From Candidatus Hinthialibacter antarcticus (GTDB lineage Bacteria; Hinthialibacterota; Hinthialibacteria; Hinthialibacterales; Hinthialibacteraceae): a DNA stretch of 64,000 nt. Made by a program: the position numbers and the translations under genes. Shown piece after piece: positions 3,684 through 64,000 of this stretch (positions are counted from its first letter, which is position 1; every line of letters starts with the position of its first letter). Where the stretch lies: contig JAVCCE010000011.1 in assembly GCA_030765645.1 (NCBI GenBank), positions 186,001-250,000 of the forward strand. Direction: 5' to 3'. The notes under the pieces were generated by a model, which saw only the letters and a program-made list of their open reading frames with translations, was not told the DNA's origin and searched no databases.

Positions 3684-3719
3684 TCGTTTGTTCCGAATCG
3701 TTATGAGAATTTGAAATAC

Positions 3720-3800
3720 CTCGGGGTTGGGTTACGCTTGTCTCCGTCGCGGCTTATTGCCGCTGACTACGAAAGCCGCTTCACCCAATCCCCTGCGGCA
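3720..3800 (-). repeat. Structured intergenic repeat, family A copy 1
   Basis: Read on the minus strand, this roughly 80-bp element has outer arms GGGGATTGGGT and ACCCAACCCC enclosing AAGCGGCTTTCG and an inner hairpin GCGGC-AATAA-GCCGC. Two further copies lie at 50188-50270 and 59966-60048, with compensated changes in the inner stem. It sits between convergent genes, downstream of the helical-protein gene. Confidence 0.8.
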
Positions 3801-3914
3801 TTTCAAGCGTAAGCCACAGGGTCTTTTTTAATGAATAACCCCGTCGCAAGCAGCGGGATATCAAACCGTGTAATTATATGCCATCTCAAAACCATTTCGT
3901 TCAAGAAAGGTTTG

Positions 3915-4022
3915 GGGCCTGTCAAAAATGAACCAGCGAATTCTGGCATGGGCGCATCTCTGGAAGCGCCTGTGCATAAGGGCCTGAAAGCCCGCACTGA
4001 AGCGAGCAGAGATGCGCCCATG
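3915..4022 (+). repeat. Structured intergenic repeat, family B copy 1
   Basis: The core is at 3947-4022, bounded by a perfect 15-bp inverted repeat CATGGGCGCATCTCT (3947-3961) and AGAGATGCGCCCATG (4008-4022). It encloses the conserved segment GGCCTGAAAGCCCGCACTGA. Four other copies occur at about 28482, 34998, 43686 and 59681. It lies 3' of the RNA methyltransferase gene in a convergent spacer. The apparent small ORF across it is produced by the repeat. Confidence 0.85.
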
Positions 4023-4116
4023 CCTTTCACAACCAAAACACAAGTTGTTTTGAGATGGCTTCTCGTATTTCTTACACCCCGAAGGGCGAGAAGTTAAACC
4101 TAATGATAAACTTTCA

Positions 4117-9713: not shown

Positions 9714-10682
9714 ATGGATATTAGGAACAAAGTATTTAATGAAGATTGCATCGAAGGCACAAAACTAAAAATACCAGATAATAGCGTTGATTTAATAATT
9801 ACTGACCCTCCATATGGCATTAATGGTGACAAACTTCACAAACATTATAATCGTAAAGAATCATTTGTTATAGATGGTTACACAGAAATTCCAGAATCGG
9901 ATTATCCAGAATTTAGCAATAATTGGATACAACAATCTGAGAGGATTTTAAAGCCTGGTGGTTCAATTTATATAGTTTCTGGATACACGAATTTAGTGCA
10001 CATCTTGAATTCATTAAAGAATACTAAGCTAAAGGAGATGAATCACTTAATATGGAAATATAATTTTGGAGTATACACTAAGACAAAATATGTTTCCTCT
10101 CATTACCACATATTATATCTTATAAAAAAAGGAAAGAAGCACACATTTAATACTAATGCACGTTATGGGCAAGAAGAAAAAAACAAAGATAATGGTTCAA
10201 TGAATTACAAAGACAGAGAAGATGTCTGGATTATTAATAAAGAATACAAACCCGGTGAAACAAAGAACAAAAATGAATTACCAATTAAATTATTAACTAA
10301 AATTATCCAATATAGCAGCAATGAAGGAGACTTAGTTTTCGACTTCTTTCTTGGCGGTTTTTCTACTGCAAAAGTTGCACTTGGTTTATCTAGAGATTAC
10401 AGCGGCTTTGAAATCAACACAAAATCTTTTGAGCATCACTACAAAGAATTACAAAATTTAGAAAAAGGTCATCTATCACATACATTAAGAATCCCGCAGC
10501 AAGATATGTTATTCAGCCAAGGCGAGCCCTGGAATGACACCGATTTAGCCACACTAAAAGACAAATATGAAAAATTAATCTATAAATATAAAACTAAAAG
10601 GAAAGTTATTGAAGAATTGTCTTTAGAGTTTGGTAGAGGCCGCTTTTCATTAACCAATGCCCTTAAGAGAGTTGGGTATTAA
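9714..10682 (+). CDS. Beta-class DNA methyltransferase (N6-adenine or N4-cytosine) of a type II R-M system
   Basis: This 322-residue DNA methylase has the catalytic motif IV DPPY at residues 31-34. The SAM-binding motif FDFFLGGFST (209-218) lies C-terminal to it, which is the beta-class order. The C-terminus (about 275-322) is a charged helical segment that could be a target-recognition or HTH-like part. It would protect the recognition site of the adjacent candidate endonuclease. The gene is strongly AT-rich with AAA/ATT/TTA codon preference, unlike the flanking chromosome, indicating recent acquisition. The start ATG 9714 follows GAGG. The methylated sequence cannot be told from the protein. 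Confidence 0.9.
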   Translation: MDIRNKVFNEDCIEGTKLKIPDNSVDLIITDPPYGINGDKLHKHYNRKESFVIDGYTEIPESDYPEFSNNWIQQSERILKPGGSIYIVSGYTNLVHILNSLKNTKLKEMNHLIWKYNFGVYTKTKYVSSHYHILYLIKKGKKHTFNTNARYGQEEKNKDNGSMNYKDREDVWIINKEYKPGETKNKNELPIKLLTKIIQYSSNEGDLVFDFFLGGFSTAKVALGLSRDYSGFEINTKSFEHHYKELQNLEKGHLSHTLRIPQQDMLFSQGEPWNDTDLATLKDKYEKLIYKYKTKRKVIEELSLEFGRGRFSLTNALKRVGY

Positions 10683-28410: not shown

Positions 28411-28481
28411 AATTGCAAAGCGGTTGCCATCAACATGTTCGGAATGGTTTTAGGCGCAACCAGCAACAATCACAATGAAAA

Positions 28482-28630
28482 CGGATTCAGGCATATCAAT
28501 AATTGACAAACCGATTCAGGCATGGGTGCAACTCGGCGAGCGCCTGCGCATAAGGGCCTGAAAGCCCGCACTGAAGCGAGCAGAGTTGCGCCCATGCCAC
28601 TTGCAGCGAAAGTTCAGTTCAATTTACGAA
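28482..28630 (+). repeat. Structured intergenic repeat, family B copy 2
   Basis: The core at 28521-28596 has arms CATGGGTGCAACTC and GAGTTGCGCCCATG. The 5' extension CAGGCATATCAATAATTGAC and the 3' tail CAGCGAAAGTTCAGTTCAAT are shared with copies 3-5. It lies in the convergent spacer between the MFS and DUF1080 genes. Confidence 0.85.
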
Positions 28631-28640
28631 AGAACCAAAA

Positions 28641-34997: not shown

Positions 34998-35395
34998 TTA
35001 TCAATTTGAATTGAGATTTCGCTGCATGGGACATGGGTATAACTCTGCTCGCTTCAGTGCCAATGACATTGGCTTAAGCCATGATCTGCAAATAGATCGT
35101 GATTTTGCCCGGCGTATAGTGTGTGTCATTGCGAGCGAAGCGAAGCAATCTCGCTTAATTGATGGGTGAGATTGCCGCGTCGGCCTTTGGCCTCCTCGCA
35201 ATGACACTGTCGAAGGGCTTTGGTGTTCTTCAGTCAATGACATTGCCTTCAGTGCGGGCTTTCAGGGACCAATGCACAGGCGCTCCCAGAGTAGCACCCA
35301 TGTCTGAATTGGTATGTCAATTTTTGATATGCAGGGATACGTTTTCGCCACCAAAATCATGGTCATTCATCAATGTAAGTTCTCACTTACTGGAT
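34998..35395 (-). repeat. Structured intergenic repeat, family B copy 3 (interrupted)
   Basis: Read on the minus strand this copy has the 5' extension (CTTATCCAGTAAGTGAG, GCATATCAAAAATTGAC), the core bounded by CATGGGTGCTACTCT and AGAGTTATACCCATG (35032-35302) and the 3' tail CAGCGAAATCTCAATTCAA. The core is split after TTCAGTG by a 186-bp insertion (35061-35246). Confidence 0.85.
35061..35246. mobile_element. MITE-like insertion in a family B repeat
   Basis: The insert is about 186 bp with no coding capacity. It is flanked by a 9-bp direct duplication CTTCAGTGC at 35052-35060 and 35247-35255. Its ends form imperfect inverted repeats: CAATGACATTGGCTTAAG at 35061 pairs with the complement of the last 18 bases, matching 15 of 18. 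Internally GTCATTGCGAG...GCAATCTCGC and GAGATTGCC...CTCGCAATGAC form a long palindrome. The uninterrupted repeat copies show the empty site. Confidence 0.85.
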
Positions 35396-43685: not shown

Positions 43686-43856
43686 GTTCATCCGGTAAGT
43701 GAGTTTCAAAAATTGATGGATAGCCATTATTTTGTTTAGAAAAACGTATTCAGGCATGGGATGCAACTCTGGAAGCGCCTGTGCAAAACCCGCACTGAAG
43801 CGAGCAGAGTTGTACCCATGCCGCATGCAGCGAAATTTCAATTCAATTTATAAAAA
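43686..43856 (+). repeat. Structured intergenic repeat, family B copy 4
   Basis: The core at 43755-43820 has arms CATGGGATGCAACTCT and AGAGTTGTACCCATG and lacks about ten bases of the usual centre (GTGCAAAACCCGCACTG). The 5' part GGTTCATCCGGTAAGTGAG and 3' tail CAGCGAAATTTCAATTCAAT match copies 3 and 5. It is in the leader region of the gene at 43979. Confidence 0.82.
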
Positions 43857-50162: not shown

Positions 50163-50187
50163 TATTAAAAAGCAGCCCATTCAAAAT

Positions 50188-50270
50188 GTCGCAGGGGATT
50201 GGGTGAAGCGGCTTTCGGAGTAACGGCCCTGAAGGCCGTACGGAGACAAGCGCAACCCAACCCCGAGGCA
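50188..50270 (+). repeat. Structured intergenic repeat, family A copy 2
   Basis: It contains GCAGGGGATTGGGTGAAGCG, an inner hairpin ACGGCC-CTGAA-GGCCGT and the closing arm ACCCAACCCC. Its inner stem differs from copy 1 (GCGGC/GCCGC) while keeping pairing. Confidence 0.85.
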
Positions 50271-50359: not shown

Positions 50360-53300
50360 TTAATACAACGCCCAGTCAACCACATCCGTGAAGGCTTCCA
50401 ATTCGCTTAATGTGAAGTAATTGAACTGGCCTTCGACATAGCTATCGACTCCCCACACTTTTGAGAAGAAACCAACCCGGGTCGGCGTACGCGACTCAGA
50501 CAACGGAGCGCCCAGCAACTGCCAGGGACGCCCGGGCAATTGTGCGCTGAATATCAGTTCACCGGTACGTTTTGTCACGGCCAGTTTCGCGGTCGCATCA
50601 CCCGCGTCAAGCAAATCATACCAATCAAATACGTCTGTTAATTCATGGTATGACAATGACCCAAACTGACCGACGTTGGTCAGTTCTACGCGGATGTTTT
50701 CGTTGTAGAAGCCAAACAGATATTCATCGTTTGAGATATCGGCGTCATCGCCCTGGTTGTACGTAACGGTCATGCCCATGTTGATATTGGCCCAATCAAA
50801 GGCGTCAACCAAAGTCAGTTCCGTCTCAATACGCCAATCGCCGTCTGGGATATCGGTGCGAAGCAGCATCGGCGCCCGGCGGCCTGCGGCGTATTCATCC
50901 AAACGGGCCCCATCGCCAAATGCGTCTGCGGTAAAGGAGACGTTCCCGTCTGCTACGTGAATATCAACGCCTTCTTCGTAATCCACGTCGAGCGCGGGAT
51001 CGCTGCCATATTCAATCATCCATTCGCTAGACAAATTGGCGCCGTCAAAGTTATCGGTCATATCGCTTGTGGACTGACCGAACAACCACAACTGATTAAA
51101 GACGCTGCCGTCGCCTTTAACGCTGTCTGCAATCGGCAAGCCAATATCAGCCATACCGTCAAACAACAAGAAGCGCAAACCTTCCGGCGGCGCGACTTGA
51201 TAGGTCACGCTAGTCGAAGTGGTGGTCGGGTCTAACTGCCAAATGATCCGGTCGCCGACCATCTGTCCACCGTTGCTAATGTTGCTGACTTCAACGCCTT
51301 CAGGAACAGACTCTTCAATATATGGCGTATAGGTTCCATATAATGACTCAGCATTAAGAGAAACATCAAACGATGTGCTTGGCGCAAATGAACCATCAGC
51401 GGTTAATGAACGTTCAACGCGACCGATACCATCCACTCGAACCACTTCCATACGGCCGATGCTATCGGGCACCGTCGGGCCAGGGATTGCCAGAACAATC
51501 GACTGTACGCCGCCGCTGACTTCAAACGGTCCAACGCTAAAGAAATTGTAAGCATTGAAGTCTGTTGGCGTCGCCAGAATTTCACCTTTAAACTTGTTGT
51601 TCACATAGACGTCTACCGGGCAGTTGTTGCCTTGGCCCCATGTATTGACGCTTAAGTTCAAAACCAAAACCTGTTGGCCTTCGCCCAAGTCAAATGTATA
51701 ACGGAACCAGTCGCCCTGAGAGATGCGGTCGCCGCCAACGCCGGCGTTGGTATCGCTGGCGCCATGTTCAAATGTGATTTCGTCTTGATCGCGATAATCA
51801 TCAAACGCATAACTTTCGTTATCTCGCGGTGCGCCAGGATTGGCAAAGCGGAAGTCTGCGTCCTGCGGGAACGTAAACGACGTGTCAATCGCAGGTTTGG
51901 TCCCGTCTCCGGGCCGCGTATAGGCGGCATCCGTTGCGACGCCGTCCATCCCCTGGGTATATCGTTCGCCGTATGCGTATTCCGCCGGGTAGTTCTTGCC
52001 GTCGACCGGGCTGCCGCTAAAGTCGATGTCAATCGTTTCGCGGTATAGATAAGGAAGTTCAATCTCAATCGCGGTATCGCCTGCAATGCGCTCTTCGCCG
52101 TCGCCTGAATCGGCGCTGCCTGAGAAATTCGCAACGCGATTGCGAATTAAGCGCGGCGGCATCGCGTTATAGGTTAAAGTGACCGTTTCAGATTGGTTGG
52201 TAAACGACCAATAAATGTTTCCGTCGCTTAATACGCCGCCGTTTGAAATATTGGAAGCAGTCCAGTTTTCAGGGATGCCTTCAATAATACTCATTGAGGG
52301 AATGCTGCCCGTCACCGTCACTTTGAGTTCAACCGGAACAGCAGTGTCCGCCTCAAATTTTTCTTGGGTTATCGAACGCTCAAGAATCGCGCGATTATCG
52401 GCGAGCCCGCGAATGGTGAAGTTATCGACATAATGGACGCCTGCGTCGCCGCCATCATGATTATTGCCTAACTGAACATAACGCGGTCCATCGCCAAAGG
52501 CAGGAAAATCGCGTTCATCAACTAGAATATAACCGCCTTCGCCACGATCTTTATACAAAAAGACAATATGATCGCCCGTCACTTCAAACCGCAAACGGTG
52601 CGGCGGCGAACCAAGCGGTTCGGTTATATCAATCGGGCCTCCCGTCGGGATGGTATCGCTTCCATTAAAGTAGTGGGTATTGGCGCGCAAAAAATAATTA
52701 TGACGATCAAAAATACTTTCATCTACGCCAACTAACGGCCAAACGGAAAAACGCGCATTGACGTCAGCCGGATGGAAAAAGTCAAATTCCATCACATAAT
52801 TGAGAGGAAGTTCTTCGTCCAAACGAATCCATTGGTTGTTGCCGCCGCCGCTTAACCATTCGATGCGGCCGTTCACAGCCCGCGCGGTGCCGCCGCCGAA
52901 GTCGATCCATTCCGGCCAGGCTTCCCACGGCAGGTCGCTGCTGGGGTTGTTGAAGTTATTACTATAGTTAAACAAGTTTTGTGATGTATAACTCAAGACA
53001 AAGTTGTCAACATAATGTACGCCCGAGTCGCCGCCGTCATGGTTATTACCTAACTGAATAAAACGCTCGCCTTCGCCAAACTCAGGGAAGTCGCGTTCGT
53101 CAACTAAAATCCAGCCGCCTTCGCCCCGGTCTTTATACAAGAACACGACATGGTCGCCGCTTACTTCAAAACGCAACCGGTGCGGTGCAGCGCCAACCGG
53201 TTCGGTCATATCAATCGGACCGCCCGTAGGGATGGTATCGGCGCCATTAAAGTAGTGGGTATTGGCGCGTAAGAAGTAATTGTGGCGCTCAAAAATGCTT

Positions 53301-55544: not shown

Positions 55545-56540
55545 CTACACAACGACCCAGCCGTTGTCTTTGACGCTCTGTTGGATTGCGTCGATGACCT
55601 TCATGTTGTTGACCGCGTCTTCCATCGGCGTTGGAACGGGCTTGTTGTTGAGAATCGCGTCGGAAAACAGATCGCCTTGAATGGTATATTGGTCACAGAT
55701 ATCAAACACGATCTCTTTGATCTTTTCTGAATGCTGATGCCACATCTTGCAGGGGCGGTCAGGCGGCGCGTTGAAGGGAATCTCAATTTCGACGCGGCCT
55801 TGCGTCCCGTATAAGTTGACTCGTTGATACGTCTCCAACTGGGTCGCGCAAATAAACGACGCCATGCCTTGTTTAAAATCGAGTAGCGCCGATGACAATC
55901 GGTCTGACTTGAAGTTCTCATCCATTTCTAACTGTCCGCAAACCCGCGTCGGCTCATCGCCGAAAATAAAGCGCGACAGCGAGATGCAATAACATCCGAT
56001 ATCCATGAGTCCGCCGCCGCCTTCGACGCCAGGCATGTTGCGCACGTTTTTTGGATCAAGATTGTGATAGGTGAAGACAGACTGAATCGCCTTCAGTTCG
56101 CCGATGGAGCCGTTATCGACCAGTTCCTTCGCTTTGACCCATTGGGGATGATGGCGATACATGAAGGCTTCCATCACCTTGAGTTCAGGATGCGCCCTGG
56201 CGGCGTTGAGCAGGCGTTGCGCGTCGATTGCCGAAAGCCCGACCGGCTTTTCACACAGCACATGCTTGCCCGCTTCGAGCGCTTTGATCGACCATTCGAC
56301 GTGAAGATGGTTGGGCAGCGGATTATAAATTACGTCGATGTCCGAATCTGCGAGCAGGTCTTCATACGAACCATAGGCCTTGGGGATTTCTAAATTCTTC
56401 GCAGCCGCTTTGGCTGTCTCAAGCGAACGCGAGGAGATTGCGTCAATCGTACAAAGTTGACATTGCTTCATCGCCGGAACGACTTTGGTTTGCGCAAAAT
56501 TCGAAGTGCTTAAAACACCCCATCGAAGTTTTTTCATCAT
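55545..56540 (-). CDS. Cytoplasmic Gfo/Idh/MocA oxidoreductase
   Basis: The 331-residue protein has the N-terminal Rossmann motif LRWGVLSTSNFAQTKVVP, the catalytic Lys in HVLCEKPVGLS, and a C-terminal Gfo/Idh domain with MEDAVNNMKVIDAI. It has no signal peptide, so it acts in the cytoplasm. ATG 56540 or 56537 is possible; the second is better spaced from GAGG. It lies 4 bp after the GH97 gene, which suggests that the sugar released by GH97 is oxidised, or its keto form reduced, by this enzyme. Confidence 0.85.
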   Translation of the reverse strand: MMKKLRWGVLSTSNFAQTKVVPAMKQCQLCTIDAISSRSLETAKAAAKNLEIPKAYGSYEDLLADSDIDVIYNPLPNHLHVEWSIKALEAGKHVLCEKPVGLSAIDAQRLLNAARAHPELKVMEAFMYRHHPQWVKAKELVDNGSIGELKAIQSVFTYHNLDPKNVRNMPGVEGGGGLMDIGCYCISLSRFIFGDEPTRVCGQLEMDENFKSDRLSSALLDFKQGMASFICATQLETYQRVNLYGTQGRVEIEIPFNAPPDRPCKMWHQHSEKIKEIVFDICDQYTIQGDLFSDAILNNKPVPTPMEDAVNNMKVIDAIQQSVKDNGWVVV

Positions 56541-56544
56541 GACC

Positions 56545-58416
56545 TCAATTTGTATTTTGTTTCGCTATACGAATTGCGATTCCGTCATTTTTCACCAGGT
56601 GAAGATTCAATAGTGTGGTGGAATTGACTGGTTGTTTTGATATGGCGACTTTGGTGCGCGTGTTTAGTTGCTTGTCGGTTGAATACATCGTCGCCTCATA
56701 TTGAACGCCCTCTTCTAAAAATGAAAGAGACGCGCGAATGTCGCGTGGAGTCGCGGCGTTCATGCAGCCAATGAACCACTCGTCGCCGCTGCGCCGCGCC
56801 ATCACGGCATATTCGCCAATCGCTGCGTCTAACACGCGGGTATCATCCCAGACGGTCGGGACCTGCGCGAAGAACTCGATCTCGCGGTTGTCTTCTTGCT
56901 CGATTTCTGCAGGCGAATCATACCAATAGACAAATTGCCAGGGGCTGTAAAAACAGACGGCTTTCGCCAATTGATAAGCATGGGATGCATTCTCGATCAC
57001 GCGTGGATCATAGTAACAAATGGTATTATCGCCCGCACCCGCCAGCATACGGGTGAAGAAAATCGTTAGGGTTTGATCATTGGTCGGCTTGGTTTCGTCG
57101 CCGCGAATGCCTTCTTGCGTCATCAAATTCGGGTAGGTGCGCGAATAGCCCGTCGGGCGGTATTCGTCATGAATATCCACCATCAGCTGGTGGTCAGCCG
57201 CTTTGCGAACAGCGTCATGAAGCCAAGCGGTCCATTTTTGCGAACCGACATTGACGAAGCCGTATTTAACGCCCGCGATTCCCCATTTCTTGTAGAGCGG
57301 CAAAATCACATCGAGCTGCTTTTCTAGCGCCCGGCGATTGACGTACACGATTACGCCGATGTCTTTTTGTTTCGCATATTCAATTACTTTGTGCAAATCC
57401 AGCGGCCCCGGCGAACGGTCTGGGTCAACTGTGATCGTGGTCGCGTCGGAGGCGTCATCGTATTCAAGCCCATACCAACCTGCGTCAAATTCGATGTACT
57501 GCAAACCATTCCGCACAGCGAAATCCACGCAGGCCATTCCCCCCGTCGTCGTAAGCGAGGTTTCACGAATCACCTTGCCCGGCTTGATCCACGATGCGTC
57601 CTCAATTGCGCATGGATCATTCAGATTTAAAATCAAGTCATTATTTTCCAACAACGCGCCCGCCGATTCAGCGATCATCACCACCCGCCACGGCGTCCGG
57701 TACGGCGCCTCCGCGTGAACGTCGCTGCTCAGCGCAGTTATAACACCCGGCTGCCCTTCTCCGGTGGGATCAAACTTGGTTCGCGCATAATCAACCAGCC
57801 GCGCTTCGGCGAGAGAGACAAAGCAATCATCGCTGACTTGAACCGTCAAAGGACGCTCGCAACCGTTTTTGATTTTGGATATCGGGCGTTTCTCATATAG
57901 CCCTTGCGCGCTATACGTCGCCCAGGCGGGAGAATCGTTTTCAAATTTAAATTCGGTATTCTCGCTCTCAATGGTAAACGATTGCAGCGCATCCTGTTTG
58001 GGAAATTCATAACAAAACGCTACGCCTTCGTTATATACGCGAACATGAATATTGATTTTGCGATGCGGCTCATTTTTTTCAGCGACCGTAATTGTCAATT
58101 CGTTGTAGCGGTCGCGAACCTGGCTGCGCTCACCGTACACGGGCTTCCAAGTCGAATCTTGCAATTTCACGTCTGACGCAGAGACCGAAAGGTGTTCTTC
58201 AAACAACTCTTGCCCCGAAAACCGAAATGCGATTTGAGACGGGGCGATGATAACTTTTTCATTAGACTGAATCGCATAAAACAGACAATCCGATTGCGAC
58301 CCGGTCGATTTTATGAAAAAATTTGCCTCAATCTCTCCATTAGGAGACGCGATCTCAACCGCTTGAATATTGGATGCAAAAAACAGACACAAGGTGCTGA
58401 ACACACAAAACTTCAT
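56545..58416 (-). CDS. Exported GH97 glycoside hydrolase
   Basis: The 623-residue protein has a signal peptide (1-19) and the GH97 architecture: an N-terminal beta-supersandwich, a TIM barrel (about 270-560, FDAGWYGLEYDDAS, GVIVYVNRRALEKQLD, MVDIHDEYRPTGYSRTYPNLMTQEG) and a C-terminal beta domain. GH97 includes alpha-glucosidase and alpha-galactosidase. The catalytic residues are not certain. AAGGAA precedes the ATG. It forms an operon with the Gfo/Idh gene at 55545. Confidence 0.88.
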   Translation of the reverse strand: MKFCVFSTLCLFFASNIQAVEIASPNGEIEANFFIKSTGSQSDCLFYAIQSNEKVIIAPSQIAFRFSGQELFEEHLSVSASDVKLQDSTWKPVYGERSQVRDRYNELTITVAEKNEPHRKINIHVRVYNEGVAFCYEFPKQDALQSFTIESENTEFKFENDSPAWATYSAQGLYEKRPISKIKNGCERPLTVQVSDDCFVSLAEARLVDYARTKFDPTGEGQPGVITALSSDVHAEAPYRTPWRVVMIAESAGALLENNDLILNLNDPCAIEDASWIKPGKVIRETSLTTTGGMACVDFAVRNGLQYIEFDAGWYGLEYDDASDATTITVDPDRSPGPLDLHKVIEYAKQKDIGVIVYVNRRALEKQLDVILPLYKKWGIAGVKYGFVNVGSQKWTAWLHDAVRKAADHQLMVDIHDEYRPTGYSRTYPNLMTQEGIRGDETKPTNDQTLTIFFTRMLAGAGDNTICYYDPRVIENASHAYQLAKAVCFYSPWQFVYWYDSPAEIEQEDNREIEFFAQVPTVWDDTRVLDAAIGEYAVMARRSGDEWFIGCMNAATPRDIRASLSFLEEGVQYEATMYSTDKQLNTRTKVAISKQPVNSTTLLNLHLVKNDGIAIRIAKQNTN

Positions 58417-58619: not shown

Positions 58620-59639
58620 ATGATGCGTATTGGAATTCTTGGCTTCGGCTTCATGGGAAAAATGCACTTCAACCATTATCAGGAACACCCGGGCGCAACC
58701 ATAGTTGCGGTTTGCGATGCGGCGATTGATTCAATCAAAAACGCAGACAGCGAAGCAGGTAACCTCGAGGGCGCAGACAAACCTATCGACCTCAGCGAGG
58801 TTGAATTATATTCCGATTTTGGCGACATGCTGGCGTCCGCCAAACTCGACGCGGTCTCGATTACGCTGCCGACCTTTATTCATGAAAAATTCACTTGCCA
58901 GGCGTTAGAGGCGGGCGTTCATGTGTTATGCGAAAAGCCGATGGGGCTGACCGTTGCCGAATGCGACCGCATGTTGAGTTCAGCAAAGTCTTCAGAAAAA
59001 ATATTACAAATCGGCCACTGCATCCGCTTCTGGCCGGAATACGCCAAAACCAAAGCGATTATTGATAGCGGCGAATACGGCAAATTGATTGCGCTGTCGA
59101 TGCGCCGACTGGCTGCGACTCCAACCTGGAGCCATGACAACTGGTTGATGAGCGAACAACGCAGCGGCGGCGTCGCGCTGGACCTGCATATCCATGACAC
59201 AGACTTCGTTCAATATCTTTTGGGTGCGCCGAAAGCGGTTTCCTGTTACGGCTCACACGCTTCGTCCGGCATCCTGGCGCACCTCTCCACCAGTTATGTG
59301 TATGACGACGATGTTTTAGTCACGGCGGAAGGCGGCTGGATGATGAAGCCCGGCTTTGGTTTTGAAATGAGTTTCAACGCCGTACTCGAAAACGCCACCA
59401 TCGTCTTCGACATCAACCGCGACCCTGCGTTCAAAATCTGCCCGGCGGAAGGCGACCCCATCACGCCGGAATACGACCAGACCGACGCCTACCGCGCACA
59501 GATTGATTATTTCATCCATTCGATCAATGGCGAAAAGCAAGATGAAGTGGTGACCGTCGAAAGTTCGCGCCGCGCCGTGCAAATCATCGAAGCGGAACTA
59601 AAATCAATCGAGACGGGCGCTCCAGTTGCGTTGGCTTAA
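58620..59639 (+). CDS. Cytoplasmic Gfo/Idh/MocA oxidoreductase
   Basis: This 339-residue protein has GILGFGFMGKMHFNHY (Rossmann) and HVLCEKPMGLT (catalytic Lys). The C-terminal domain shows SGGVALDLHIHDTDFVQYL and RAVQIIEAELKSIETG. AAGGAAAG precedes the ATG (58620 or 58623). No signal peptide. It is separated by about 445 bp containing two repeats from the sugar isomerase at 60085, and may still belong to the same functional cluster. Confidence 0.87.
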   Translation: MMRIGILGFGFMGKMHFNHYQEHPGATIVAVCDAAIDSIKNADSEAGNLEGADKPIDLSEVELYSDFGDMLASAKLDAVSITLPTFIHEKFTCQALEAGVHVLCEKPMGLTVAECDRMLSSAKSSEKILQIGHCIRFWPEYAKTKAIIDSGEYGKLIALSMRRLAATPTWSHDNWLMSEQRSGGVALDLHIHDTDFVQYLLGAPKAVSCYGSHASSGILAHLSTSYVYDDDVLVTAEGGWMMKPGFGFEMSFNAVLENATIVFDINRDPAFKICPAEGDPITPEYDQTDAYRAQIDYFIHSINGEKQDEVVTVESSRRAVQIIEAELKSIETGAPVALA

Positions 59640-59680: not shown

Positions 59681-59886
59681 GGTTCATCCGGTAAATGAGT
59701 ACTTACATTGGTGGATGGTCATAATTTTGATTTAGAAACGGGCTCCGGCATATCAAAAAATGACAAACCAATCAGGCATGGGGGGAACTCTGGGAGCGCC
59801 TGTGCATAAGGGCTTGAAAGCCCGCACTGAAGCAAGCAGAGTTGTACCCATGCCTGATACAGCGAAAGATCAAGAATTCACGAAAA
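59681..59886 (+). repeat. Structured intergenic repeat, family B copy 5
   Basis: The core at 59777-59852 has arms CATGGGGGGAACTCT and AGAGTTGTACCCATG. The 5' part GGTTCATCCGGTAAATGAG and the tail CAGCGAAAGATCAAGAATTC match the other copies. Family A copy 3 follows it within 80 bp. Confidence 0.85.
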
Positions 59887-59965
59887 AGCGTCAACAAAGC
59901 GTAAATCAATTAGTGATAAAGTATCCAAATGCCGGAAGAACCTTAAATAGTAACTACATAAACGA

Positions 59966-60048
59966 AAGCCGCAGGGGATTGGGTGGAGCGGCTTTCGGAG
60001 TAACGGCCTGAAAGCCGTACGGAGACAAGCGGAATCCAACCCCGAGGC
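59966..60048 (+). repeat. Structured intergenic repeat, family A copy 3
   Basis: It shows GCAGGGGATTGGGTGGAGCG, an inner hairpin ACGGC-CTGAAA-GCCGT and the arm ATCCAACCCC. It is immediately upstream of the sugar isomerase gene. Confidence 0.85.
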
Positions 60049-60084: not shown

Positions 60085-60906
60085 ATGCGAAAATGTTTAG
60101 ACTGGCCGGTTTCAGTATGCAGTTGGTCGTTTCAACAAGACGTCCAGGACGTTGCGGCAGCATTAAAAAAATTAGACGTCGGCTATATCAACCTCGCCCT
60201 TTTGCCCGCGCTTCAAGACAACGGCGCCGAGTATCTTGAGTTCGTCAAGCAACAGGATTGGACCATCAGCGCGACCATGATTAATTTTCCGTGCGAAGAT
60301 TACTCGAGCCTGGAGAGCATTCAGGCCACCGGCGGCATCGCCTCCGATGAGCATTGGGAAGAAAACCAGAAACTCGCCCAAGGCGCCATTGACCTCACCG
60401 CCGAGTTAAATACCGAATACCTGCTGATGCACTTCGGCTTCCTCGACCACACCCAGAAAGAATACGCGCAAAAATTCTATGACCGCACCAAAATTTTGGC
60501 GGATTACGCGTCCGAAAAAGGCGTAAAGTTCATCATGGAAACCGGTCAGGAAAGCGCAGAAGACCTCAAGCATTTTCTAGAAGAAATAAACCACCCCGCG
60601 CTATACGTCAATTTCGATCCGGCAAATATGATTCTTTATAATAAAGGCGTCCCCGCCGAAGCGATCAAAGTGCTGGCGCCGTGGATCCGCCACGTCCATA
60701 TCAAAGACGCCACTCTCACCAAGACGCCTGGAACCTGGGGCGAAGAAGTGCCCTGGGGCGACGGCGAAGTCGGCGCGCATAACTTCTTGACAATATTGAA
60801 TGCGCTCGGCTACAAAGGCGCCGTCGCCATCGAACGCGAAGCAGGCGACGACCGCTTTGGCGACATCAAACTCGCGGCGGAACGCATCAGCGCATTTCAA
60901 GTGTAA
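60085..60906 (+). CDS. Sugar phosphate isomerase/epimerase (AP2-endonuclease-like TIM barrel)
   Basis: The 273-residue protein is of the xylose-isomerase-like TIM-barrel superfamily. Metal-binding acidic/His residues appear in [36 protein letters not shown] and VAIEREAGD. It should isomerise or epimerise a keto-sugar. It is the first of four genes closely spaced on this strand with a NagB-like enzyme, Tat-exported Gfo/Idh and DUF1080 protein, which supports keto-sugar catabolism. GAGG precedes the ATG. Confidence 0.85.
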
Positions 60907-60928
60907 TTCTTTCAAGGAGAGATCAATC

Positions 60929-61858
60929 ATGTCGCGAAAACACAGCATTCTTGCGCCAAACTGGTGGGACTTTACAACGCTGGACGACGACCTATTAGAC
61001 GAAGCGGCGCGGCTAACGCCGGACGATATGCTGGCGTTGTCGCGCGACGGCTTTCGCGTCGTTTTTTATGATACCCTCGAAGACTTTTACCTCGCCGAAG
61101 CGCTCGAATATATCACTGCATGGAAACAAGCAACGGCGGACGACCCGGTCGGCGTTTGCGGCCCCATCGGCCCGACCGAGCAGTTGCCTCTGGTTGCGCG
61201 ACTGGTGAATGAGTTAGAACTCAACTTGCAGCACGCCCATTTCTGGGGCATGGACGAATGGGTGCTTGACGGCAATTCAGTCAGCGTCGATCACCCGCTT
61301 TCGTTTGAAAAAGCCGACCGGGAATTGTGCTTCGACCTCATCAATCCAAAACTCGTAATGCCAGACAAGAACTTACATTTCCCCAAAGCCGATACCATTC
61401 AATACGTCCAAAGTTGGAACGGCGTACGCTGTGCGGTGATGCAAGGCGGCCAGGGCGATATTAAACACTGGGCGTTTAATGATCCCGTCAAACGCGCAGG
61501 ACAATACGCCGACGCGCCGCCCTCGCCAGACGATTACCGCCAACTCTCAACCCGCGTGGTTGACCTGCACCCGGTCACGGTCATGCAAAACGCGCGCACC
61601 AGCGGCGGCGGGGTGGTAACTGGCGTCCCCACCCAAGCGGTCACGGTGGGGCCGGTGCAAACCTGGCAGGCGGAGAAAATCTCGATCTGGCAAGCGGGCG
61701 CGCATGATAATCCGTTCGGCATGAGACTGACGGCTTTGATGATCGGCAAGCAACTCGCCGACAGCAGCGTCCCCATGTCGCTTTTAGCCGACCACCCCAA
61801 CGTACAATTCAATTTCTATCGCGGCGGACTGGGGACTTGCGACGTGGAAATGCACTAG
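60929..61858 (+). CDS. NagB/6-phosphogluconolactonase-family sugar enzyme
   Basis: This 309-residue protein starts at ATG 60929 with AAGGAGAG upstream, after a spacer of 22 bp; an earlier in-frame ATG overlaps the isomerase gene. It resembles glucosamine-6-phosphate deaminase: [24 protein letters not shown] (equivalent to the GHIAFNEP loop) and [12 protein letters not shown]. Both the loop and the C-terminal lid are divergent, so the substrate may not be glucosamine-6-phosphate. It could act on an amino- or keto-sugar phosphate produced by its neighbours. Confidence 0.78.
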
Positions 61859-61905
61859 GCAAGGCACGGGCGCTCGACATCGCGGCCAATCTGTTGGAGA
61901 ATAAC

Positions 61906-61947
61906 ATGCAACCGTTTATCTTCGACATTGCAGGAGCGCAACCATGA
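61906..61947 (+). CDS. 13-residue leader ORF overlapping the next gene start
   Basis: ATG 61906 with GGAGAATAAC upstream encodes MQPFIFDIAGAQP and ends at TGA 61945-61947, overlapping the ATG of the Tat-exported oxidoreductase (ATGA). It also contains that gene's GGAG ribosome-binding site. It may couple translation, be a vestige of a removed gene, or be chance. Confidence 0.35.
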   Translation: MQPFIFDIAGAQP

Positions 61948-63248
61948 AAACGCAAACCATCAAACGCCGTTCGTTTCTTCAATCGGGCCTGGCGGCGCCG
62001 CTGATCGTACAAGCATCAACCCTAGGCTTATCGCGGCATGTATCCGCCAATGACAAAATCCAAGTCGGCTGTATCGGCGTGGGCCCGCGCGGCACGGACG
62101 GACTGCGCGATTTACTGCGCAATGACAACTGCACTGTGACTGCGTTGTGCGACGTGAAGAGCAACGTGTTAAAAGAAAAGACCGACCTCGTCAACCAATT
62201 TTATGACAACCAGGAATGCAAGCCCTACCATGATTTTCGCGAACTGGTTAAGCGAAAGGACATCGACGCGGTGTTGGTCGCGACCTGCGACCATTGGCAC
62301 GTTTTGACCTCTCTCGCCGCCGTGCGGTCGGGCAAAGATGTGTATATGGAAAAACCGATGGGGCTTTCGCTGGAAGAAGATCAGGTCATGCGCGCCGAAG
62401 TGCAAAAACACAAACGCATCTTTCAATTTGGAACGCAACAGCGCTCGGATGCACAGTTTCGACGCGCCTGTGAGATCGTACAAAACGGATTAATCGGCGA
62501 GTTAAAAACCATTCGCGTGTGGTCGCCGGGCAGCGCATCGGGCGGCCCGACCCAGACGGCGCCCGTTCCGCAGTGGCTCGATTATGACCGCTGGCTCGGC
62601 CCCGCCCCCAAGGTCCCGTATACGGAAAACCGCTGTTCGAATGAATGGTGGTGGTATATATCAGACTATGCGCTTGGCTTTATCGCGGGTTGGGGCATTC
62701 ACCCGATTGACATCGCGCTGTGGGGCGGCGAAGGCAAATTCACCGGGCCGTGGACAATTGAAGGGACCGGTGAGTTTCCTAGCGAGGGCGTGTGCGACAC
62801 CGCCATGCACTGGGACATTGACATTCAACTCGGCAGCGGCGTGAAACTCGAGTTCAAAGGCCCACGCATCCCTCAGGACTGGATCGAACGCTATGGCGAG
62901 AACGAAGGCCACGGCACCGCGTTTGAAGGCAGCGAAGGCTGGGTGTACGTGCGGCGCGGCAAGATGGTTTGTTCGAGAGAAATCACCGACGCCGACATCA
63001 AGACGCCGCTCTATCAAAGCGCCAACCACGTTGGCAACTATCTCGATTGCGTACGGTCGAGAAAACCAACCATCAGCCCGGTCGAGGTTGCGGTGCAAGG
63101 CGACGCGCTCTGTCATGTGAGCGACATTGCCATTCGGTTGCAACGAAAACTGACGTTTGATCCATCAACAGAAACATTCATCAACGACGCCGATGCAAAC
63201 AAACGGCTAAAGCGCCCCATGCGGGCGCCTTGGTCATTGCAGGCCTAA
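61944..63248 (+). CDS. Tat-exported Gfo/Idh/MocA oxidoreductase
   Basis: The 434-residue protein opens with a twin-arginine signal (IKRRSFLQSGLAAPLIVQAS), then a Rossmann domain (IQVGCIGVGPRGTDGL), the catalytic VYMEKPMGLS and a C-terminal Gfo/Idh domain (WWWYISDYALGFIAGWGIHP, NHVGNYLDCVRSRKP). It resembles the enzyme at 33578. It likely binds NAD(P) before export and oxidises sugars in the periplasm. Its product could feed the DUF1080 gene 30 bp downstream. Confidence 0.9.
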   Translation: MKTQTIKRRSFLQSGLAAPLIVQASTLGLSRHVSANDKIQVGCIGVGPRGTDGLRDLLRNDNCTVTALCDVKSNVLKEKTDLVNQFYDNQECKPYHDFRELVKRKDIDAVLVATCDHWHVLTSLAAVRSGKDVYMEKPMGLSLEEDQVMRAEVQKHKRIFQFGTQQRSDAQFRRACEIVQNGLIGELKTIRVWSPGSASGGPTQTAPVPQWLDYDRWLGPAPKVPYTENRCSNEWWWYISDYALGFIAGWGIHPIDIALWGGEGKFTGPWTIEGTGEFPSEGVCDTAMHWDIDIQLGSGVKLEFKGPRIPQDWIERYGENEGHGTAFEGSEGWVYVRRGKMVCSREITDADIKTPLYQSANHVGNYLDCVRSRKPTISPVEVAVQGDALCHVSDIAIRLQRKLTFDPSTETFINDADANKRLKRPMRAPWSLQA

Positions 63249-63278
63249 ATCAAAGAAGAAATCATGGGAGAAGCAAGA

Positions 63279-64000
63279 ATGAAATTACGCTTTCGTTTTA
63301 CTTTCGCGATGATTATATCTCTCGTTTTATGCGTGGGCGCCTTTGCCGCTGACGACGAGGGGTGGATTCCACTCTTTAACGGCAAAAACCTCGACGGTTG
63401 GACGCCGAAAATAAAAGGCTACGACTTGGGCGACAATTTTGGGAATACCTTTTACGTCGAAGACGGCGTCATCAAAGTAACGTATGAGAAGTACGACAAA
63501 TTTGACAAGCGCTATGGACACCTGTTTTTTAAGGAACCGTTTTCTAGTTATAAGTTCCGCCTTGAATACCGCTTTGTCGGCGAACAGTGCAACGGCGGCG
63601 AAGGCTGGGCGCTGCGCAACAGCGGCATCATGCTGCATTGTCAGGACCCTGCGACAATGACCAAAGATCAGGATTTCCCTGATAGCATCGAAGTGCAACT
63701 GCTGGGCGGCAATGGTAAAGACGACCGCTCTACCGCCAATCTTTGTACGCCGGGAACGCAAGTGGTGATGGACGGCAAACTCATCAAACAACATTGCACC
63801 AACTCCGCATCCGAAACCTACCACGGCGAACAATGGGTGACTTGCGAGGTTGAGGTGCATGGCTCGGGCAAAATCATCCACAAAGTCAACGGCGAAAAAG
63901 TGATGGAATATGAGAAATCGCAAAAAGACGACGGGACGCTAATCGAAGGCGGCTATATTTCCGTGCAATCCGAAAGCCATCCCTGCGAATTTCGGAATAT
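63279..64000 (+). CDS. Exported DUF1080 protein, 3' end outside window
   Basis: The frame is open from ATG 63279 (GGGAG upstream) to the window end, 240 codons without a stop. A signal peptide (MKLRFRFTFAMIISLVLCVGAFAA) precedes DUF1080 motifs GWIPLFNGKNLDGW, FSSYKFRLEYRF, NSGIMLHCQ and DSIEVQLLGGNG. It should bind or hydrolyse 3-keto-glycosides, paired with the Tat-exported oxidoreductase just upstream. Only the C-terminal end, probably about 15-30 residues, is missing. Confidence 0.88.
   Translation, partial: MKLRFRFTFAMIISLVLCVGAFAADDEGWIPLFNGKNLDGWTPKIKGYDLGDNFGNTFYVEDGVIKVTYEKYDKFDKRYGHLFFKEPFSSYKFRLEYRFVGEQCNGGEGWALRNSGIMLHCQDPATMTKDQDFPDSIEVQLLGGNGKDDRSTANLCTPGTQVVMDGKLIKQHCTNSASETYHGEQWVTCEVEVHGSGKIIHKVNGEKVMEYEKSQKDDGTLIEGGYISVQSESHPCEFRN

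Follow-up and report, generated by a model that had tools for sequence, protein, structure and literature searches.

Near the right end of the 64,000-nucleotide window that we analysed in the genome of Candidatus Hinthialibacter antarcticus (contig JAVCCE010000011.1, positions 186,001 to 250,000), a gene encodes a divergent relative of the glucosamine-6-phosphate (GlcN6P) deaminase NagB. The question is which sugar this NagB-like protein (60929-61858, forward strand, 309 aa) handles, and which of its neighbours share the task. The original prediction had placed the gene in a candidate keto-sugar operon with three others on the same strand: a xylose-isomerase-like TIM barrel, an oxidoreductase of the Gfo/Idh family exported by the twin-arginine (Tat) pathway, and a DUF1080 protein. 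Open reading frames (ORFs) and profile matches bore out the four genes, their positions and their families. The NagB-like protein is the conserved core of the finding, and we suggest with moderate confidence that it is a cytoplasmic isomerising deaminase of an amino sugar lacking the 6-phosphate, fed by deacetylation through an enzyme of the PIG-L family. Gene linkage, fold homology and residue changes are the basis of this reading; from them we infer the deaminase chemistry, the phosphate-free substrate, the order of the steps and the identity of the sugar. On this view it is a NagB-fold enzyme, probably for non-phosphorylated amino sugars, within a widespread PIG-L-linked system.

The NagB-like protein matched no Pfam family, PF01182 included, even at an E value of 10, and its score against TIGR00502 (nagB) was 21.3 bits, far below the cut-off of 236.9 bits. 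In annotation pipelines the enzyme gives a weak match at best, and its family has no Pfam name. A family profile search of the PDB recovered only NagB-type chains, mostly GlcN6P deaminases, together with one chain of the 6-phosphogluconolactonase type (best E 5e-25). An AlphaFold2 model had a predicted local distance difference test score (pLDDT) of 88, and its top Foldseek matches were nearly all GlcN6P deaminases (E about 1e-14, template modelling score 0.6-0.65 on the query). The modelled structure has the GlcN6P-deaminase fold, shared with NagB (EC 3.5.99.6; PF01182, TIGR00502; PDB 1dea/1cd5, 7lqn, 3hn6) over most of the chain, but about 40 extra N-terminal residues set the NagB-like protein apart. 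Two other PF01182 proteins are encoded in the genome, and one of these has the sequence of a canonical NagB; the NagB-like protein is therefore no stand-in for that enzyme.

A scan of GTDB confirmed at least 586 loci with the NagB-like gene. The 80 that we kept, which are the best matches and not a random sample, encode proteins 72-82% identical to the window protein over the full length, and come from Planctomycetota, Verrucomicrobiota, Bacteroidota, Balneolota, Armatimonadota, Kiritimatiellota and others. Residue conservation and neighbourhood counts were taken over 85 members or loci; 106 of the 309 residues were practically invariant. The phyla were intermixed in the NagB-like tree, with support, which suggests horizontal transfer of the gene, although caution is due since the genomes are mostly binned. 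We also observed at least two further NagB-like subfamilies (L034-L040), with 23-30% identity and MDEW/MDEY and HIAFWE motifs.

In the alignment, D109, H180, N221 and R223 corresponded to D72, H143, N170 and R172 of E. coli NagB. D109 and H180, the equivalents of the proton-transfer residue Asp72 and the ring-opening residue His143, were invariant in the 85 members. The catalytic loop (residues 174-186; 61448-61486, forward strand), to which the original prediction had drawn attention, was indeed present and aligned without gaps to the E. coli loop GNDGHIAFNEP. Within it, H180 stood for H143 and D185 for E148, and I178 replaced D141, a position that varied across the family. The residues of E. 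coli NagB that bind the 6-phosphate of the substrate are those of the phosphate loop together with R172 and K208. From this site (TGxTP motif, Arg172, Lys208), only the arginine was retained, as R223. Residues 79-85 (61163-61183, forward strand) read P-I-G-P-T-E-Q in place of the TGxTP motif and were invariant in the family, and within the AHDN stretch at residues 258-261 (61700-61711, forward strand) the invariant D260 took the position of the phosphate-binding K208. The replacement of this lysine by an aspartate suggests that no phosphate is bound at the equivalent site. The phosphate loop was two residues shorter in the hidden Markov model alignment and ungapped in MAFFT; our claim is therefore limited to the change of motif. 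Taken with the loss of D141, these replacements support and sharpen the earlier expectation of a divergent enzyme whose specificity is probably altered.

The usual neighbour hints at the nature of the substrate. In 64 of the 85 loci, the NagB-like gene had a gene of the PIG-L/LmbE de-N-acetylase family no more than 400 bp away, on the same strand in 63 of them. The amino-sugar route that had been proposed as one option thus gained a deacetylase neighbour in most relatives. This usual neighbour belongs with the PIG-L/LmbE de-N-acetylases such as BshB1 (6p2t) and diacetylchitobiose deacetylase (3wl4, 8bgn). It carries the HPDD zinc motif and a later histidine, with H13, D15, D16 and H118 conserved in 95% or more of these PIG-L proteins, and its solved relatives act on N-acetylglucosamine (GlcNAc) conjugates and chitobiose. 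Two PIG-L lineages, down to 28% identical, adjoin NagB-like proteins that are all at least 59% identical to one another, and the position of the PIG-L gene varies, being downstream in L105 and L116 and on the opposite strand in L084. The two lineages and the varying order argue against mere inheritance of one old neighbourhood. The distance matrices of the two proteins were correlated (r=0.69, reached in 0 of 2000 permutations), as is partly expected from shared species history. Two Chitinophagaceae (L072/L100) nested among the Verrucomicrobiota for the NagB-like protein, and their PIG-L was likewise of the Verrucomicrobiota type. In a distant NagB-like clade (29% identity), PIG-L was directly upstream in L034; at other distant loci a Gfo/Idh gene was divergent (L037 and L039), with PIG-L also divergent nearby in L037. 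Our literature search found no report of PIG-L paired with a NagB-like gene altered at the phosphate site.

Since the partner is a probable de-N-acetylase, deacetylation followed by isomerising deamination and ketose phosphorylation is the simplest chemistry. The substrate would be an amino sugar without a 6-phosphate, such as glucosamine, galactosamine or a close derivative. The PIG-L family enzyme would take off the N-acetyl group, and the NagB-like enzyme would then open the ring with H180, shift the C2 proton with D109, and yield a ketose and free ammonia. Phosphorylation of the ketose would come last, by a kinase that in many clusters is PfkB. Genes for a PfkB kinase, a DUF4432 protein and an MtlD-like dehydrogenase were found downstream in about 16-20 loci, mostly in Phycisphaerae, where the order was flavin adenine dinucleotide (FAD) oxidoreductase, xylose-isomerase-like protein, PIG-L, NagB-like, PfkB, DUF4432 and MtlD-like. 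They also occurred in the Prolixibacteraceae locus L102, in a cluster of DegT, Gfo/Idh, PIG-L, NagB-like, amino acid permease, DUF4432, PfkB-like and MtlD-like genes. The best family matches of the MtlD-like proteins were mannitol-1-phosphate dehydrogenases.

Amino sugars from chitin, peptidoglycan and mucin are a major source of nitrogen and carbon, and the textbook route for their use requires GlcNAc-6-phosphate and NagA/NagB. We tentatively propose that Planctomycetota, Verrucomicrobiota and Bacteroidota might share a widespread, undescribed catabolism of amino sugars without upfront phosphorylation, in which PIG-L and a NagB-fold deaminase act on the free sugar and the ketose is phosphorylated last. 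Such a route would bring a new activity, a free-hexosamine isomerising deaminase; to our knowledge, no enzyme with this activity is known. If so, the PIG-L and NagB-like pair would account for the use of amino sugars by many uncultured bacteria. The pair is a directly testable two-enzyme hypothesis.

In the lineage of the window, the conserved surroundings of the NagB-like gene lie to its left. The TIM-barrel protein directly upstream (60085-60906, forward strand, 273 aa; PF01261, E 8e-28) is a probable ketose 3-epimerase/isomerase, in which E-D-H-E metal ligands can be made out by eye. Of six genomes from the same family, only G000 and G001 encode a strong orthologue, which in both immediately precedes the NagB-like gene. 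The two genes stay together in the nearest relatives, usually with PIG-L between them, and in some a cytoplasmic-type Gfo/Idh gene is found further upstream. The window has such a gene at 58620-59639 (forward strand), here called Gfo5, which lacks a signal peptide and resembles IolG and UDP-GlcNAc 3-dehydrogenases. The order Gfo5, isomerase, (PIG-L), NagB-like was the same in L030/L043 and in L050, which has all four genes; the genes were spread out in L045, and L042 had isomerase, PIG-L and NagB-like. The lineage of the window retains Gfo5, isomerase and NagB-like. The conserved unit therefore extends left to 58620 and not to the right, and the grouping first drawn at 60085-64000 was too short on the left, where it omitted Gfo5. 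The TIM-barrel enzyme and the Gfo/Idh protein would act on a neighbouring step, with PIG-L coming from elsewhere in the genome. A stand-alone PIG-L protein (L125, 248 aa) is encoded elsewhere and is 50% identical to the one adjoining the NagB-like gene of the same-family genome G004; we infer that PIG-L is supplied in trans in this lineage. The loci with no PIG-L found near the NagB-like gene include those of Pedosphaera-type Verrucomicrobia (L104, L103, L107, L109, L115), where the genes upstream, named from reading their sequences, encode a Tat-signal protein, a sulfatase-like protein and another, long protein.

Several observations weigh against a deaminase of a non-phosphorylated amino sugar. 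The other residue that binds phosphate in NagB is retained as R223, and an anionic substrate is therefore possible, either with its phosphate elsewhere or as a uronate. The loss of D141 and the change of E148 to aspartate mean that the chemistry may differ. About a fifth of the NagB-like loci have no PIG-L nearby, and in the window's own lineage none adjoins the gene. Furthermore, the solved PIG-L relatives include the hydratase 5cgz, so not all PIG-L proteins are deacetylases. The retained arginine can be accommodated in two other ways. The protein could be a GlcN6P-type deaminase with a drifted phosphate site that still takes a 6-phosphorylated amino sugar, as R223 and the catalytic D109 and H180, the fold and the best matches to GlcN6P deaminases would have it. 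We regard this as unlikely: the lysine is an invariant aspartate and the TGxTP motif is replaced in all 85 members, D141 is lost, the genome has its own canonical NagB, and the solved relatives of the PIG-L partner use GlcNAc conjugates and chitobiose, not GlcNAc-6-phosphate. Alternatively, R223 might bind the carboxylate of an amino-uronic or other acidic amino sugar, with the MtlD-like and PfkB proteins processing a keto-uronate. Retention of the arginine while the lysine was lost would suit such a substrate, as would weak matches of the MtlD-like proteins to uronate reductases and of one kinase to 2-keto-3-deoxygluconate (KDG) kinases. However, mannitol-1-phosphate dehydrogenases, the best MtlD matches, suit fructose-type ketoses better, and the window showed no gene specific to uronates, which makes this explanation quite improbable. 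Least probable by far is an isomerase or lactonase for a non-amino sugar, with a PIG-L partner that does not de-N-acetylate. The fold does span 6-phosphogluconolactonases, and 5cgz shows that PIG-L relatives can be hydratases; yet sequence and fold were closest to deaminases rather than lactonases, and the recurrent PIG-L pairing suits deacetylation followed by deamination.

The remaining explanation is the keto-sugar operon itself, in which the Tat-exported Gfo/Idh protein (61944-63248, forward strand, 434 aa, twin-arginine start; PF01408 and PF19051) would make 3-keto glycosides, the DUF1080 protein (PF06439, 253 aa; 63264-64025 in the contig, ending 25 bases past the window, forward strand) would cleave them, and the isomerase and NagB-like protein would process the product. 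The four genes are closely spaced on one strand, and since the gaps are only 22, 85 and 15 bp, their co-transcription is plausible; promoter-like and terminator-like sites in our scans were no more numerous than in shuffled DNA. The Gfo protein resembles glycoside 3-dehydrogenases: its nearest solved relatives are 8tdf and 8tdh, and it scored 141 of 750 bits, far below the cut-off, against NF058561, the family of the glycoside 3-dehydrogenase BT_2158. DUF1080 enzymes can hydrolyse 3-keto glycosides (PMC9007349), and the two window proteins are distant relatives of the enzyme types of that pathway (BT2156-BT2160 type; PMC9007349). Of the NagB-like loci, 13 had a Tat-Gfo-like gene and 5 a DUF1080 gene within 6 kb, the window's included. 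Nevertheless, the Tat-Gfo orthologues in four same-family genomes (58-67% identity) had no DUF1080, isomerase or NagB-like gene in the flanking 1.5 kb or so on each side; the Tat-Gfo and NagB-like genes of G001 and G004 were on different contigs. DUF1080 occurs at 33 places in this genome, and the Tat-exported Gfo/Idh protein belongs to a large paralogous family with 11 strong matches there; finding one such pair next to a sugar gene therefore says little, and chance adjacency is likely. PIG-L is the neighbour with which the NagB-like gene is strongly associated. Thus, Tat Gfo/Idh and DUF1080 are neighbours and not conserved partners of the NagB-like gene. The 3-keto-glycoside link was not supported as a conserved feature, and we consider this explanation unlikely. 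The idea of four genes as one conserved operon did not hold; when the neighbours were compared across relatives, the isomerase stayed with the NagB-like gene in the nearest of them, but the other two did not.

Other roles considered for the genes on the right were rejected. Assignment of the Tat Gfo protein to the GH109 alpha-N-acetylgalactosaminidases failed because only the Rossmann part matched 2ixa and 6t2b (E 1e-6 and 1e-5) and the C-terminal domain is PF19051. The contig gene after DUF1080 encodes a stand-alone SIS-domain protein that matches KdsD/GutQ; it was discarded as a pathway member, given this match, the terminator-like hairpin and 0.2 kb that precede it, and its occurrence close to just 2 NagB-like loci, that of the window among them. 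Elsewhere in the window (55545-58416, reverse strand), a Gfo/Idh gene lies directly behind a GH97 gene, on the strand opposite to the four-gene run; the GH97 protein is retaining alpha-galactosidase-like (274 of 800 bits).

The region between Gfo5 and the isomerase gene contains a dispersed hairpin element of about 85 nt (59965-60048, forward strand). Further copies lie in the window at 50185-50269 and 3714-3803 (reverse strand) and in L009 at 10130-10215; the pattern matched 26 times in this genome, and 14 relatives had no match. We rejected the idea of a riboswitch ahead of the isomerase gene, as the leader hairpin is this dispersed element and Rfam gave nothing credible. The outer flanks of the copies are locus-specific yet mutually complementary, above the level of swapped flanks (0/5000 permutations), as if the element sat inside pre-existing palindromes or came with a compensating basal stem. 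Another dispersed repeat, about 70-130 nt long (AAAGCCCGCACTGAAGC...CCCATGCC), occurs in at least five places in the window (3906-4057, 28480-28631, 35003-35346 on the reverse strand, 43785-43855 and 59736-59887). An 83-aa ORF at 59760-60011 spans dispersed repeats and is probably not a gene. Finally, a 300-nt direct repeat (52419-52718 and 53001-53300, 82% identical, 582 nt apart) is possibly a duplicated coding module.

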